Shown here: positions 178-5,809 of the stretch, piece by piece
Layout of the letters: each line of letters starts with the position of its first letter
Position numbering within the stretch: the first letter of the stretch is position 1
Origin: a virus
Strand: one strand, 5' to 3'
DNA length: 32,259 nucleotides
Virus record (IMG/VR): IMGVR_UViG_3300027985_001080
Span: 1 to 32,259 of that record
The notes under the pieces: generated by a model
The model's database searches: none
Told to the model about the DNA's origin: nothing
What the model saw: only the letters and a program-made list of their open reading frames with translations
Program-made: the position numbers and the translations under genes

Positions 178-319
178 TGCTCGACCTCGAACTCTGGCTG
201 ATGGGCACCCCCGCCGACCTCGACGCCGCCAACCATGTGCCGATGCGGTGACCGTCGATGCCTAAGCAGATCCAGCACAAACGCGCTACGGACAAGGTTG
301 CCTGTTCGACGACATCGGG
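134..319 (+). repeat. Degenerate 32-bp direct repeat (134-165 and 288-319)
   Basis: The two 32-bp segments match at 26 positions, including identical blocks ACGGACAAGG and TGTTCGACG. Both encode a GQG-x-LFD peptide in the corresponding frame. The distance between copies is 154 bp. This points to a local duplication that later decayed. Confidence 0.5.
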
Positions 320-331
320 AGGTCTACGTGA
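177..331 (+). pseudogene. Gene debris: truncated small ORF plus duplicated tail
   Basis: An ATG at 177, overlapping the previous stop, opens a 24-codon frame (MLDLELWLMGTPADLDAANH...) that ends at TGA 249-251. It looks like the N-terminus of a larger actinophage protein that has lost its frame. A second frame from about 266 to TGA 329-331 reads RYGQGCLFDDIG and mirrors the HGQGDLFDGTGW ending of the previous gene. No single intact reading frame covers the stretch. I read it as remains of a duplication or deletion next to the dnaN operon. A real 24-residue peptide at 177-251 cannot be excluded. Confidence 0.35.
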
Positions 332-558
332 CTGAGTTCCCGTACGTGTGGGTGTGGCGTCACCGCACCGCCGAATCCCCGTATCCGCGGGTGAAGGTGC
401 CCTGGTTCGGCGACGGAGTCGACCGCACCGGACAACGGTGCCAGGTCGTGTGCCGCGGCACGATGAACTCCGCTTTGATCAAGTTCGTCGATGGTTTCGC
501 GGTTGTGACCAGCCGCGGCGGACTCCGCAAGGCGCCAACAACTGGAGATACACGATGA
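328..558 (+). CDS. Small conserved actinophage-type protein
   Basis: The protein has 76 residues. The GTG start at 328 is preferred over upstream in-frame codons because GGGAGG (317-322) sits 5 nt before it. The protein is basic and beta-rich, with a middle segment (RTGQRCQVVCRGTMNSALIKF) and a GFAVVTSRGGLRKA end. The pattern of a conserved CxVxxRGxxNSxLxxFxDG core is one I associate with small unnamed proteins of actinobacterial phages and integrative plasmids; no biochemical role is known to me. Its TGA overlaps the dnaN ATG (ATGA), so it is probably translated with the clamp as the first intact gene of this operon. Confidence 0.6.
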   Translation: MTEFPYVWVWRHRTAESPYPRVKVPWFGDGVDRTGQRCQVVCRGTMNSALIKFVDGFAVVTSRGGLRKAPTTGDTR

Positions 559-2831: not shown

Positions 2832-3128
2832 TCAGGGATCAGTCTTCTTCTTGACGACGTTCCTGACAGAAACCATTCGGGATACGTGTTCCCGGGTGTA
2901 ACCGGTCCGGCGGGCCGCCTCGGATTTCGACATCCCCGCTTCGACGGCCTTAACCGTCGCGTCGATCAACTGTTCATGCAGTGCCTTGAGCTTGGCCTCC
3001 GTCCGGTTGTACTCGCGTGCGACTGCGTCGAGAGTCAGCGACTCCGGAGTCTCTTGCGCTTGGCGCGGTCCGCGGGGCACGTTCCGCATTGTCGCACACC
3101 CGATGTCGCGACCAGATGTCATGGACAC
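2832..3128 (-). CDS. Small helix-turn-helix DNA-binding protein
   Basis: This is the only convincing minus-strand gene. It ends at 2832; the start is uncertain. The frame stays open to GTG 3197, but the DNA above about 3150 is AT-rich and looks regulatory. GTG 3128, with GGAAAG 9 nt upstream, is preferred (98 residues); ATG 3089 is another option. The core is a helical segment with an HTH: LHEQLIDATVKAVEAG, then MSKSEAARRTGYTREHVSR, where SEAARRTGYTREHVSRM is a classical turn-plus-recognition-helix pattern. A basic VVKKK tail follows. Divergent placement facing the replication initiator, with a palindrome between them, suggests a local repressor or switch (inference). Confidence 0.7.
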   Translation of the reverse strand: MSMTSGRDIGCATMRNVPRGPRQAQETPESLTLDAVAREYNRTEAKLKALHEQLIDATVKAVEAGMSKSEAARRTGYTREHVSRMVSVRNVVKKKTDP

Positions 3129-3149
3129 GGATTGCGGCTTTCCGGGTGA

Positions 3150-3197
3150 CCGGTATGTAATCTTGATTCGCGATGACATATAGTGATCGTACATCAC
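3150..3197. promoter_or_regulatory. Divergent regulatory region with operator-like palindrome
   Basis: The stretch between the minus-strand HTH gene and the initiator is visibly AT-richer than its surroundings. It contains the palindrome GTGAT-CGTAC-ATCAC at 3183-3197, a 5-bp arm operator-like site just ahead of the initiator's ribosome-binding site. A possible + strand promoter is TTGCGG (3132-3137), an 18-nt spacer and TGTAAT (3156-3161); the match to consensus is weak. The neighbouring HTH protein is the obvious candidate to bind here (inference). Confidence 0.4.
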
Positions 3198-3221: not shown

Positions 3222-4478
3222 GTGGTCACCAGGTGGGAGGTGGAGAAGGCGGTGGGTACGTCACGGCTGGAGCCGATCGGCCGCGTCATCATGCTCACGC
3301 TGCTGACGCTGACACGGTGGGAGACGGCCGAGATACCGCCGACGTATGCCCCCACGTTCACTGACCTGGAGCGGTTGACGGGGTGTTCCCGGTCGACGCT
3401 GACGGAGTGGATGAAGGCGCTGAGCGATGCGGATTGGGTGTCGCGGAAGTCCTTCCCGGGTGAGTCGAGGCCCGGGTTCGTGCTCGGGGTCGGGTCTGCG
3501 CAGTTGGTTCGGCCGATCCGGGAACGAAAGCCCAAGAATGCCAAGCGTCAATCTCCCGTACCGCCAGGCGGTACGGCAGGCTTGCCTGACGAAACGGCAG
3601 GCAAAGAGAAAAACATCGATGAAGCGTACCGCCTGGCGGTACAAGACGAGCCACCTGCCGTACCGCCCAGCGGTACGCGCCGTACCGCCCAGCGGTACGC
3701 GACCGTACCGCCTGGCGGTACGCCAGCCGAGGCCCCTATAAGGAATCTCCCTACGGGAGATGCTGTACCTGCTACAACCACTCCACCCACACCCCCAACG
3801 CCTACGGCGATCAACGAACCATCAACGACCGACAAGTGGCCCACCACCAACCGGCAAACCTCCCCAACCGTCGGCGCCCACAACACCGCCAAACCCCAAA
3901 CCCGGCAGCCGACGATGTTCACCCCCACCAAAACACTCCCCGAAGCGATCCGGATCATCCTCGACGGGCTCCACACCGCCGGCTACCCACACGCCACCGA
4001 AGCCGACGCCCGCGCCGTCCACACCGCCATCCGCACCAAACACGGCCACAAAGTCGTCCCCAACTACCTGCGCACCATGGCCGCCAACCAGTCATTCACC
4101 CCGTTCTTCGACACCGTCCGCGAACAACGCCGCGAACAAGTCGAGCAGCAGATCCGCACCATCCAAGCCGACAACCCCGACTGCGAACACGGGCTCTCCG
4201 GCGGCAACATGCCACACCCGGCAACCGGGCAGATGCTGTGCCCGTCCTGCCGAAACGGCACACCGTCCCCCCAGGAGCGGATCCGCAGACGAACCCACCC
4301 GGCCATCACCGGAGCACTCGACGCCTACCGCACCGCGGGAGGCACCCTCACCGCCGCCGTCCTGCTGCGCCTCAGCCACGAACTCAACGTCCTGCACTCG
4401 AAAGGCGCCACCGCGCAACAACTCGCCGAGATCGCCACAGCCGCCGCCGGCACCCTCCAACCAGCCGCCGCCACGTGA
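3222..4478 (+). CDS. Replication initiator (winged-helix, origin-containing)
   Basis: The product has 418 residues from GTG 3222, chosen because GGGGAGG (3209-3215) lies 6 nt upstream. The frame is open further upstream (GTG 3183), but that would run through the palindromic operator. Residues 1-90 look like a winged HTH (GRVIMLTLLTLTRW, TFTDLERLTGCSRSTLTEWM, KALSDADWVSR). Residues about 110-170 are low-complexity and are encoded by five palindromic repeats. A Thr/Pro-rich linker follows. The C-terminal part has a helical segment (LPEAIRIILDGLHTAGYPHAT) and a Cys/His cluster (DCEHG ... MLCPSCR) that may bind zinc. The gene lies directly upstream of the DnaB helicase. The arrangement parallels lambda O, where the initiator gene contains its own origin. 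The role as initiator and helicase recruiter is inferred from domain order and context. Confidence 0.7.
   Translation: MVTRWEVEKAVGTSRLEPIGRVIMLTLLTLTRWETAEIPPTYAPTFTDLERLTGCSRSTLTEWMKALSDADWVSRKSFPGESRPGFVLGVGSAQLVRPIRERKPKNAKRQSPVPPGGTAGLPDETAGKEKNIDEAYRLAVQDEPPAVPPSGTRRTAQRYATVPPGGTPAEAPIRNLPTGDAVPATTTPPTPPTPTAINEPSTTDKWPTTNRQTSPTVGAHNTAKPQTRQPTMFTPTKTLPEAIRIILDGLHTAGYPHATEADARAVHTAIRTKHGHKVVPNYLRTMAANQSFTPFFDTVREQRREQVEQQIRTIQADNPDCEHGLSGGNMPHPATGQMLCPSCRNGTPSPQERIRRRTHPAITGALDAYRTAGGTLTAAVLLRLSHELNVLHSKGATAQQLAEIATAAAGTLQPAAAT
3557..3722. repeat. Five palindromic iterons: probable replication origin
   Basis: Five near-identical 19-bp palindromes of the form CGTACCGCC-N-GGCGGTACG occur at 3557-3575, 3625-3643, 3659-3677, 3681-3699 and 3704-3722. 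Copies 3 and 4 are identical (centre CCA instead of CAG or CTG). Start-to-start spacings are 68, 34, 22 and 23 bp; 68 is twice 34, and 22-23 is about two helical turns. Relative to the codons they fall in all three reading frames (encoding VPPGGT, YRLAV, VPPSGT, RTAQRY, VPPGGT). The conservation is therefore at DNA level, not protein level, as expected for initiator-binding iterons. Confidence 0.75.
3745..3761. other. Hairpin and AT-rich step next to the iterons
   Basis: The perfect 7-bp stem ATCTCCC-TAC-GGGAGAT starts 22 bp after the last iteron, directly behind CCTATAAGGAA (3735-3745), the AT-richest bases nearby. Together with the iterons it could form the unwinding or primer/helicase loading part of the origin (inference). 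Confidence 0.45.
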
Positions 4479-4489
4479 AGGGACCACAC

Positions 4490-5809
4490 GTGCCCACCCA
4501 AACGGAAACCGCCCCCGGCTTCGACCTCGACGCCGAAAAGATCGTCATCGGTAGTCTCATGACCGACGCCACCATCATCGATACGATTGTCGAAAAACTC
4601 GGCCACGCCGACTTCTACAACCCGCGCCACGCCGACCTGTACACGGCAATCGTCAACGCCCACGACAGCGGTGTCCCCACCGAACCGGTCGCCCTCGGCG
4701 GCTACCTGTCCGACCACGGCGTCCTCAACCGGCTCGGCGGCCTCGAATACCTACATGAGTGCTACGCGTCGGTTCCCGTCGCCGCGCAGGCCGGCTTCTA
4801 CGCCGACAGGATCTGCGAGTTGGCGATCCGTCGCCGCCTCGAAGTGGCCGGGGTACGCATCACCCAAGCCTCACAGACCGCAGGTTTGACCACGGAACAA
4901 GTCGCCGCGCTCGCCGAAGACTTGATCGGCAAGGCAACCCCGCGCCGCGGCGACGCCGACATGGTCCAGTTGGGTGCGCTGCTGGCATCCGGCCTCGACG
5001 ACATCGAACACCGCAACGGACACCCGACAGGGTTGAAAACCGGATTCAACGACCTCGACAAGCGGCTCAACGGGCTACGGCCGAAACAGCTCGTGACCAT
5101 TGCCGCCCCGACCGGATCCGGTAAGTCGGTGTTCCTCGCCGACATTGCCCGCCACCTAGCGATCAGGAACAAGCACACGGTGGCGTTTTTCAGCCTGGAG
5201 ATGGGCCGTGACGAAATGTTCGAGCGGATCATCGCCGCGGAGGCTGGTGTCCGCTACGACCGGATCCAACGCGGCGGCCTGGACGACAACGACTGGCGCA
5301 AGGTCAGCAACGTGCTCGGGCCCATGTCGATCGCCCCGCTGTTCATCTGCGACCAGCCGGAGATCACCGTCCGGCAGATACAGGCCAAAGCGCAACACTT
5401 GAGCCGTCAACACGGACTAGACGCGGTAGTCGTCGACTACCTGCAACTAGTGCAGCCGAGCCGGAACTACGGCAACGAACAGCAAGAGATTTCCGACGTC
5501 AGTCGCGCGTTGAAGGTGATGGCCGGCACCCTCGACGTGCCTGTCATCTGCGCGGCGCAGATGAACCGTGGACCCGACATGCGCGCCGACAAACTTCCCC
5601 AACTGTCCGACCTACGCGGATCCGGGGCGATCGCGAACAACAGTTCCGTCGTCGTGTTCGTGCACCGCCCCGACTACTACGACCCAGAGTCGACCCGTCG
5701 CGGTGAGGCCGACCTGCTGGTCCGTAAGTGCCGTCACGGGGAACCCGGCACGACCGTCGTGGCGGCGCAACTGGACAAATCACGTTTCGTTGACATGGCC
5801 ATCGACTGA
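4490..5809 (+). CDS. dnaB: Replicative DNA helicase, DnaB family
   Basis: The product has 439 residues from GTG 4490, with AAGGGA 6 nt upstream; the longer upstream reading frame overlaps the initiator and is not credible. It has the full DnaB layout. The N-terminal domain (residues about 10-110) begins DLDAEKIVIGSLM, the usual DnaB opening. The RecA-like ATPase domain begins about residue 180 with GLKTGFNDLDKRLNGL and carries Walker A APTGSGKS (Lys212), FFSLEM, Walker B VVVDYLQL (Asp316), the ICAAQMNRG sensor segment and LSDLRGSGAIANNSSVVVFVHRPDYY. It should act as a hexameric ring unwinding DNA 5' to 3' at the fork. Starting 11 bp after the initiator, it forms an initiator-helicase pair. 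Confidence 0.95.
   Translation: MPTQTETAPGFDLDAEKIVIGSLMTDATIIDTIVEKLGHADFYNPRHADLYTAIVNAHDSGVPTEPVALGGYLSDHGVLNRLGGLEYLHECYASVPVAAQAGFYADRICELAIRRRLEVAGVRITQASQTAGLTTEQVAALAEDLIGKATPRRGDADMVQLGALLASGLDDIEHRNGHPTGLKTGFNDLDKRLNGLRPKQLVTIAAPTGSGKSVFLADIARHLAIRNKHTVAFFSLEMGRDEMFERIIAAEAGVRYDRIQRGGLDDNDWRKVSNVLGPMSIAPLFICDQPEITVRQIQAKAQHLSRQHGLDAVVVDYLQLVQPSRNYGNEQQEISDVSRALKVMAGTLDVPVICAAQMNRGPDMRADKLPQLSDLRGSGAIANNSSVVVFVHRPDYYDPESTRRGEADLLVRKCRHGEPGTTVVAAQLDKSRFVDMAID

Follow-up and report, generated by a model that had tools for sequence, protein, structure and literature searches.

A candidate replication origin of palindromic iterons within the initiator gene of an actinobacterial phage group

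In phages P22 and L, iterons lie within initiator gene 18 itself and vary from one phage to the other in step with the initiator, and the adjoining gene 12 encodes a DnaB-type helicase (PMC8022706). In lambda and the Stx phages the iterons lie in gene O, where a 19-bp imperfect inverted repeat is the minimal site and is bound by O dimers, and an AT-rich unwinding segment adjoins the iterons (PMC7466680; PMC3349717). The G38P-G39P-G40P system of SPP1 brings a phage initiator and a phage DnaB-type helicase together at the phage origin (PMC5615212).

Here we analyse a locus in a 32.3-kb viral record in IMG/VR, the whole of which we refer to as the window. The locus resembles the 18-12 region of P22 and L in having iterons inside the initiator gene and a DnaB-type helicase gene next to it (PMC8022706), and it resembles lambda O/ori-lambda in combining in-gene 19-bp inverted-repeat iterons with an adjoining AT-rich segment; in addition, an Stx-phage O protein resembles the model of the initiator's N-terminal domain (NTD). 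There are also clear differences. P22 has four repeats of ~20 bp and L has six of 11 bp, whereas the window has five 19-bp palindromes and belongs to an actinobacterial host group. The lambda repeats are imperfect, and O hands over to the loader P and host DnaB, whereas in the window the very next gene encodes a phage DnaB. In SPP1 the loader is a separate protein, G39P, but none was recognised beside DnaB in the window. RepA_N-type plasmid initiators and DnaD share with the window's initiator an N-terminal winged helix of similar fold, a likeness that is generic only.

Since P22 and L already provide an example of the layout with a following DnaB, and lambda one of 19-bp inverted-repeat iterons, the locus would not be a new kind of origin. 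Given these precedents, direct succession of initiator and DnaB, and an unfamiliar iteron, are expected in such systems. The original prediction had singled out the DnaB-type helicase directly after a winged-helix initiator as unusual; the succession itself is present (4490-5809), but its novelty is lost to genes 18-12 of P22 and L (PMC8022706). What is new, as far as our searches reach, is the initiator family with its phage group, the 34-22-23 spacing that stays fixed in recombined genes, and the hairpin in the presumed melting region. Literature searches of open-licence papers gave no description of these origins.

Table 1 Features of the initiator locus (positions in the window unless residues are stated)
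Feature	Position	Strand	Description
Initiator gene	3222..4478	+	GTG start at 3222, 418 aa; relatives begin with the same MxTRWEVE
Initiator domains	residues ~1-95; ~96-236; ~240-415		winged-helix NTD; disordered iteron-bearing linker; helical C-terminal domain
N-terminal winged-helix DNA-binding domain (predicted)	3222..3539	+	AlphaFold2, structural matches
Iteron 1	3557..3575	.	CGTACCGCCAGGCGGTACG, phase 2
Iteron 2	3625..3643	.	CGTACCGCCTGGCGGTACA, phase 1; position of the first site of L024/L025
Iteron 3	3659..3677	.	CGTACCGCCCAGCGGTACG, phase 2
Iteron 4	3681..3699	.	CGTACCGCCCAGCGGTACG, phase 0
Iteron 5	3704..3722	.	CGTACCGCCTGGCGGTACG, phase 2
Candidate DNA-unwinding element	3736..3775	.	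40-bp stretch of lowest stability in the gene, starting 14 bp 3′ of iteron 5
Hairpin	3745..3761	.	ATCTCCC-TAC-GGGAGAT, exact, within the unstable segment
DnaB-type replicative helicase gene	4490..5809	+	GTG start; Pfam DnaB 7.6e-22, DnaB_C 1.6e-77; phrog_19 2.5e-101

The initiator stop (4478) and the GTG of dnaB (4490) are separated by an 11-bp gap, with no loader between. Pfam annotation places sliding clamp, WhiB-like and SSB genes 5′ of the initiator. The sliding clamp gene (552-1688), of the DNA polymerase III beta type, is carried by the 32-kb record itself, and the WhiB-like and SSB genes come after it. Just 5′ of the initiator, on the minus strand at 2832-3197, lies a divergent small helix-turn-helix gene with a weak phrog_686 match, possibly the initiator's regulator.

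The prediction of five 19-bp palindromes inside the initiator gene, at 3557-3722 and in phases 2, 1, 2, 0 and 2, proved exact to the position. Compared with CGTACCGCC-N-GGCGGTACG, iterons 1 to 5 have 0, 1, 1, 1 and 0 mismatches; iterons 3 and 4 have 8-bp arms flanking CAG, and iteron 2 is without the outermost pair. No further copy was found in the whole window at ≤3 mismatches (expected 0.08). When the gene was shuffled among synonymous codons so that the peptide was preserved, a mean of 0.25 and a maximum of 3 palindromes resulted, and none of 1,000 shuffles reached the 6 observed, the sixth palindrome in this count being an overlap of neighbouring sites. We conclude that a chance origin of the palindrome cluster is excluded. 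The spacings of 68, 34, 22 and 23 bp are as predicted, but only those of 22 and 23 bp are near whole helical turns, as all four had been said to be; 34 bp corresponds to 3.2 turns and 68 bp to 6.5.

Relatives were found through DnaB (seven viral contigs) and through the clustered-palindrome pattern (L015, a contig of Micromonospora sp. 15K316); L024 and L015 are one locus. Direct searches of phage, plasmid, viral-contig and genome collections with the whole initiator returned no relatives. A profile of the NTD matched in 42 of 355 genomes of the family of Micromonospora sp. 15K316, and at most of the matching loci palindromes lie immediately 3′ of the NTD. A single-palindrome hit, L006, was rejected as a chance match inside an unrelated gene.

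Two Micromonosporaceae elements, L024 and L025, encode an NTD 59-61% identical to that of the window and carry TACC-type iterons at the identical 34-22-23 bp spacing. Their C-terminal domain (CTD) is non-homologous to the window's, the BLAST match reaching no further than the linker, and in the L024 genome the downstream DnaB is only 38% identical to the window's. Conversely, L007, L008, L010 and L013 have a CTD in common with the window and a DnaB that is 67-68% identical, whereas their NTD is more distant (~48% identical) and the palindrome they carry, TGGTCCGCYnRGCGGACCA, is of the TGGTCCGC type. The sites of L009 are TAGTCCGCC. L011, L012, L058 and L059 combine a window-type CTD and DnaB with other NTDs; the repeats of the first three are quite different from the window's, and no repeats were seen in L059. 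Since L024 and L025 share both NTD and iteron with the window, whereas phages closer in DnaB and CTD carry other palindromes, the iterons follow the DNA-binding domain. On the loci compared, we conclude that iteron type goes with the NTD, and not with the CTD, the helicase or the neighbourhood. The switch from a TACC to a GTCC half-site is probably one event, and this co-variation therefore rests on few independent changes. The recurrence in L024 and L025 also means that the iteron sequence, which had been described as unlike that of other origins, is not unique.

The comparison of homologous genes that had been proposed as a check showed that the palindromes persist, the reverse of a peptide kept while palindromes are lost. 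Across the six iterons of L007, L008, L010 and L013, variable positions number 3 of 96 in the arms, 36 of 94 in the spacers and 9 of 18 in the centres, although these sites are not fully independent. At third codon positions in the same four relatives, 2 of 34 vary in the arms versus 13 of 30 in the spacers. The 47-nt block after the last iteron shows zero differences among these four. Thus, as had been suggested, it is the DNA rather than the peptide that appears to be conserved: one word is read in three frames to give unrelated peptides, and third positions in the arms are kept.

The NTD was modelled by AlphaFold2 as a winged helix with a mean pLDDT of 89.9. The CTD is partly well predicted, and the linker has pLDDT <50 at residues 100-190 and 195-236; with this linker predicted to be disordered, the peptide there would be free to vary. 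The NTD model matches the O protein of Stx phage Min27 (BFVD, E 1.9e-4), one among many phage helix-turn-helix proteins matched. Its structural neighbours include the NTDs of RepA-type initiators (4pql/4pt7) and of DnaD (2v79), at Z 7-8; the neighbours are generic winged helices, and the fold also resembles MarR and CRP proteins. Matches of the window's initiator to phage-initiator profiles are weak (phrog_270, E=0.05; phrog_391, E=0.068). Relatives with the same NTD match O-like initiators strongly (phrog_391 at 3.6e-28 for L024 and 4.3e-37 for L043), mainly through their other CTDs. No plasmid Rep family (Rep_3, RepA_N) is among the initiator's Pfam or PHROG matches, and the searches run gave no sequence match to solved initiator structures or to the P22 or L initiators.

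Both the AT-rich step and the perfect 7-bp hairpin that were said to follow the array are present. The segment at 3736 ranks among the least stable 0.5% of the window, and in 8 of 12 loci, the window included, the gene's 40-bp stretch of lowest stability begins 4-17 bp beyond the final iteron; in L024, the segment at this place is the second least stable. With a cluster of sites inside the gene, an easily melted segment adjoining it and an O-like predicted fold of the NTD, the proposed likeness to the lambda O/ori layout is supported.

A hairpin occupies the same place in 8 loci, with invariant CC-TNC-GG and with 6 of 8 pairs changed on both sides. Its covariation score was 0.78, compared with 0.29 in shuffles (0 of 500), although the hairpins were picked for being palindromic, which biases this test upward; that place and loop stay constant carries more weight. 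Half of the relatives have a plain AT-rich block instead of the hairpin, or none, and further loci with the same NTD have no hairpin, so that it cannot be a general requirement of the family. The hairpin (pyrimidine arm-CC-TNC-GG-purine arm) might act as a single-strand or RNA signal, for example in helicase loading or first priming, and so allow DnaB to be loaded without a loader, but we regard this as speculative and rather unlikely. A reading of the loop as a UNCG RNA tetraloop was discarded, since the register does not fit and that strand has no such hairpin.

A cumulative GC-skew maximum had been expected at 3.5-3.8 kb, and that of the window lies at 3530. No keto-to-amino step in the window is larger than the one at 3591, within the array. 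At fourfold-degenerate sites, GC skew changes within the initiator gene from +0.47 before the iterons to -0.56 after them; these sites are G/T-rich up to a switch at ~3530-3600 and C/A-rich beyond it. In sign, this flip runs counter to the usual leading-strand rule, and codon or composition bias could produce it instead. In other relatives the flip is weak or absent (absent in L011/L012). The window, L007, L008 and L009 have their largest skew step at or beside the iterons; L010, L011, L012 and L013 do not. Hence, we take the skew as supporting evidence only, and as support that is itself unexplained.

We conclude, with a probability of roughly 0.88, that the array (3557-3722) and the unstable segment (~3736-3775) form a phage replication origin embedded in the initiator gene, as in lambda and P22. 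This assessment comes from sequence comparison, and the central claim of the original prediction is supported by the retention of third positions in the arms and by the way the sites follow the NTD. The most serious competing explanation is that the palindromes are operators only, through which the initiator or another regulator controls its own operon, with replication starting elsewhere. A palindrome bound by a winged-helix dimer is a typical operator, and the likeness of the predicted fold to MarR and CRP proteins points the same way. However, the array lies mid-gene, away from a promoter position, its 4-6 sites at fixed 22/23/33/34 spacing are more than operators commonly have, it is followed by a hairpin and by a conserved block of unstable DNA, and the neighbours are DnaB, SSB and sliding clamp genes. 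We therefore consider an operator-only role improbable, although autoregulation through the same sites may be an additional role. Plasmid iteron arrays also control copy number, and the sites might accordingly be a centromere-like or incompatibility locus for prophage maintenance rather than for lytic initiation; but no parA/parB-like neighbour was noted near the array, and the unstable segment and adjacent DnaB indicate initiation, which makes such a locus very hard to credit.

The remaining alternatives concern how the repeats arose. If they arose as a side effect of a linker peptide that is repetitive and disordered, selection would have acted on the protein and not on the DNA. The closest relatives do keep the frames, and hence similar peptides (YRxAV, VPPxG, TAxRY). 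This explanation is nevertheless the least credible of all, its probability close to nil: the same word in three frames encodes unrelated peptides in the window (VPPGGT, YRLAV, VPPSGT, TAQRY and VPPGGT for iterons 1 to 5), synonymous shuffles never yield as many palindromes, third positions are kept in the arms while spacers change, and site 2 of L024 (CATACC...GGTATG) has two compensating changes that preserve the palindrome. Short palindromes can enter coding DNA in several frames, and the iterons could in principle be in-frame inserted copies of a mobile palindromic repeat (REP/MITE-like). Insertion of this kind is highly improbable, given that the window has no other copy, that viral and genome collections have hardly any copies outside initiator-like loci, and that the word differs between phage groups while its place in the gene is constant.

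If the array is an origin within the initiator gene, dimers of the initiator would use the N-terminal winged helix to bind the 19-bp palindromes, and several dimers on sites 22, 23 and 34 bp apart would assemble into a nucleoprotein complex. This complex would melt the unstable DNA just 3′ of the array, and the CTD would recruit the phage DnaB, the product of the adjoining gene, to the strand thus opened, with no separate loader gene nearby. We infer the direct contact between CTD and DnaB from gene order alone. The least explained parts of the locus are the covarying hairpin and the base-skew flip of unusual sign. For the actinobacterial phage group, the analysis provides a defined candidate origin of ~220 bp. 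It also reveals a natural experiment, in which NTD and iterons recombine as one unit with several CTDs and helicase arrangements; consequently, origins of uncultured phages should be predictable from the initiator gene alone, and a loader-free handover from initiator to DnaB can be tested.

Several further arrangements were seen around related genes. Short-tailed proteins with the same NTD (L033, L039, L041, L050 and others) are accompanied by TRGTCCG-n5-CGGACYA palindromes, and in the three loci examined (L076-L078) the genes for such proteins precede a gene for an ATPase rather than one for DnaB. Downstream of the L053 initiator, which has another CTD, there is an apparent DnaC-like ATPase instead of DnaB (L075, ~1261-1938). 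Another part of the L009 contig (L014, 648-782) has a TACCGCC/GCGGTA site pair beside long GAAGCAA palindromes. Among cultured phages, the genes upstream of DnaB in MrSmee and Archie are without such repeats. Streptomyces phage Chymera has five palindromic GGGGGACAGTGCCCC repeats in gp45, mostly 36 bp apart (L054, 3844-3999), and the gene preceding gp45 encodes a related winged-helix domain. In Mycobacterium phage Panchino, the replication initiation gene 57 has two blocks of 11-bp tandem repeats (ACCCTCGCGAG; L055, 2109-2164 and 2309-2364), which are a candidate in-gene origin.
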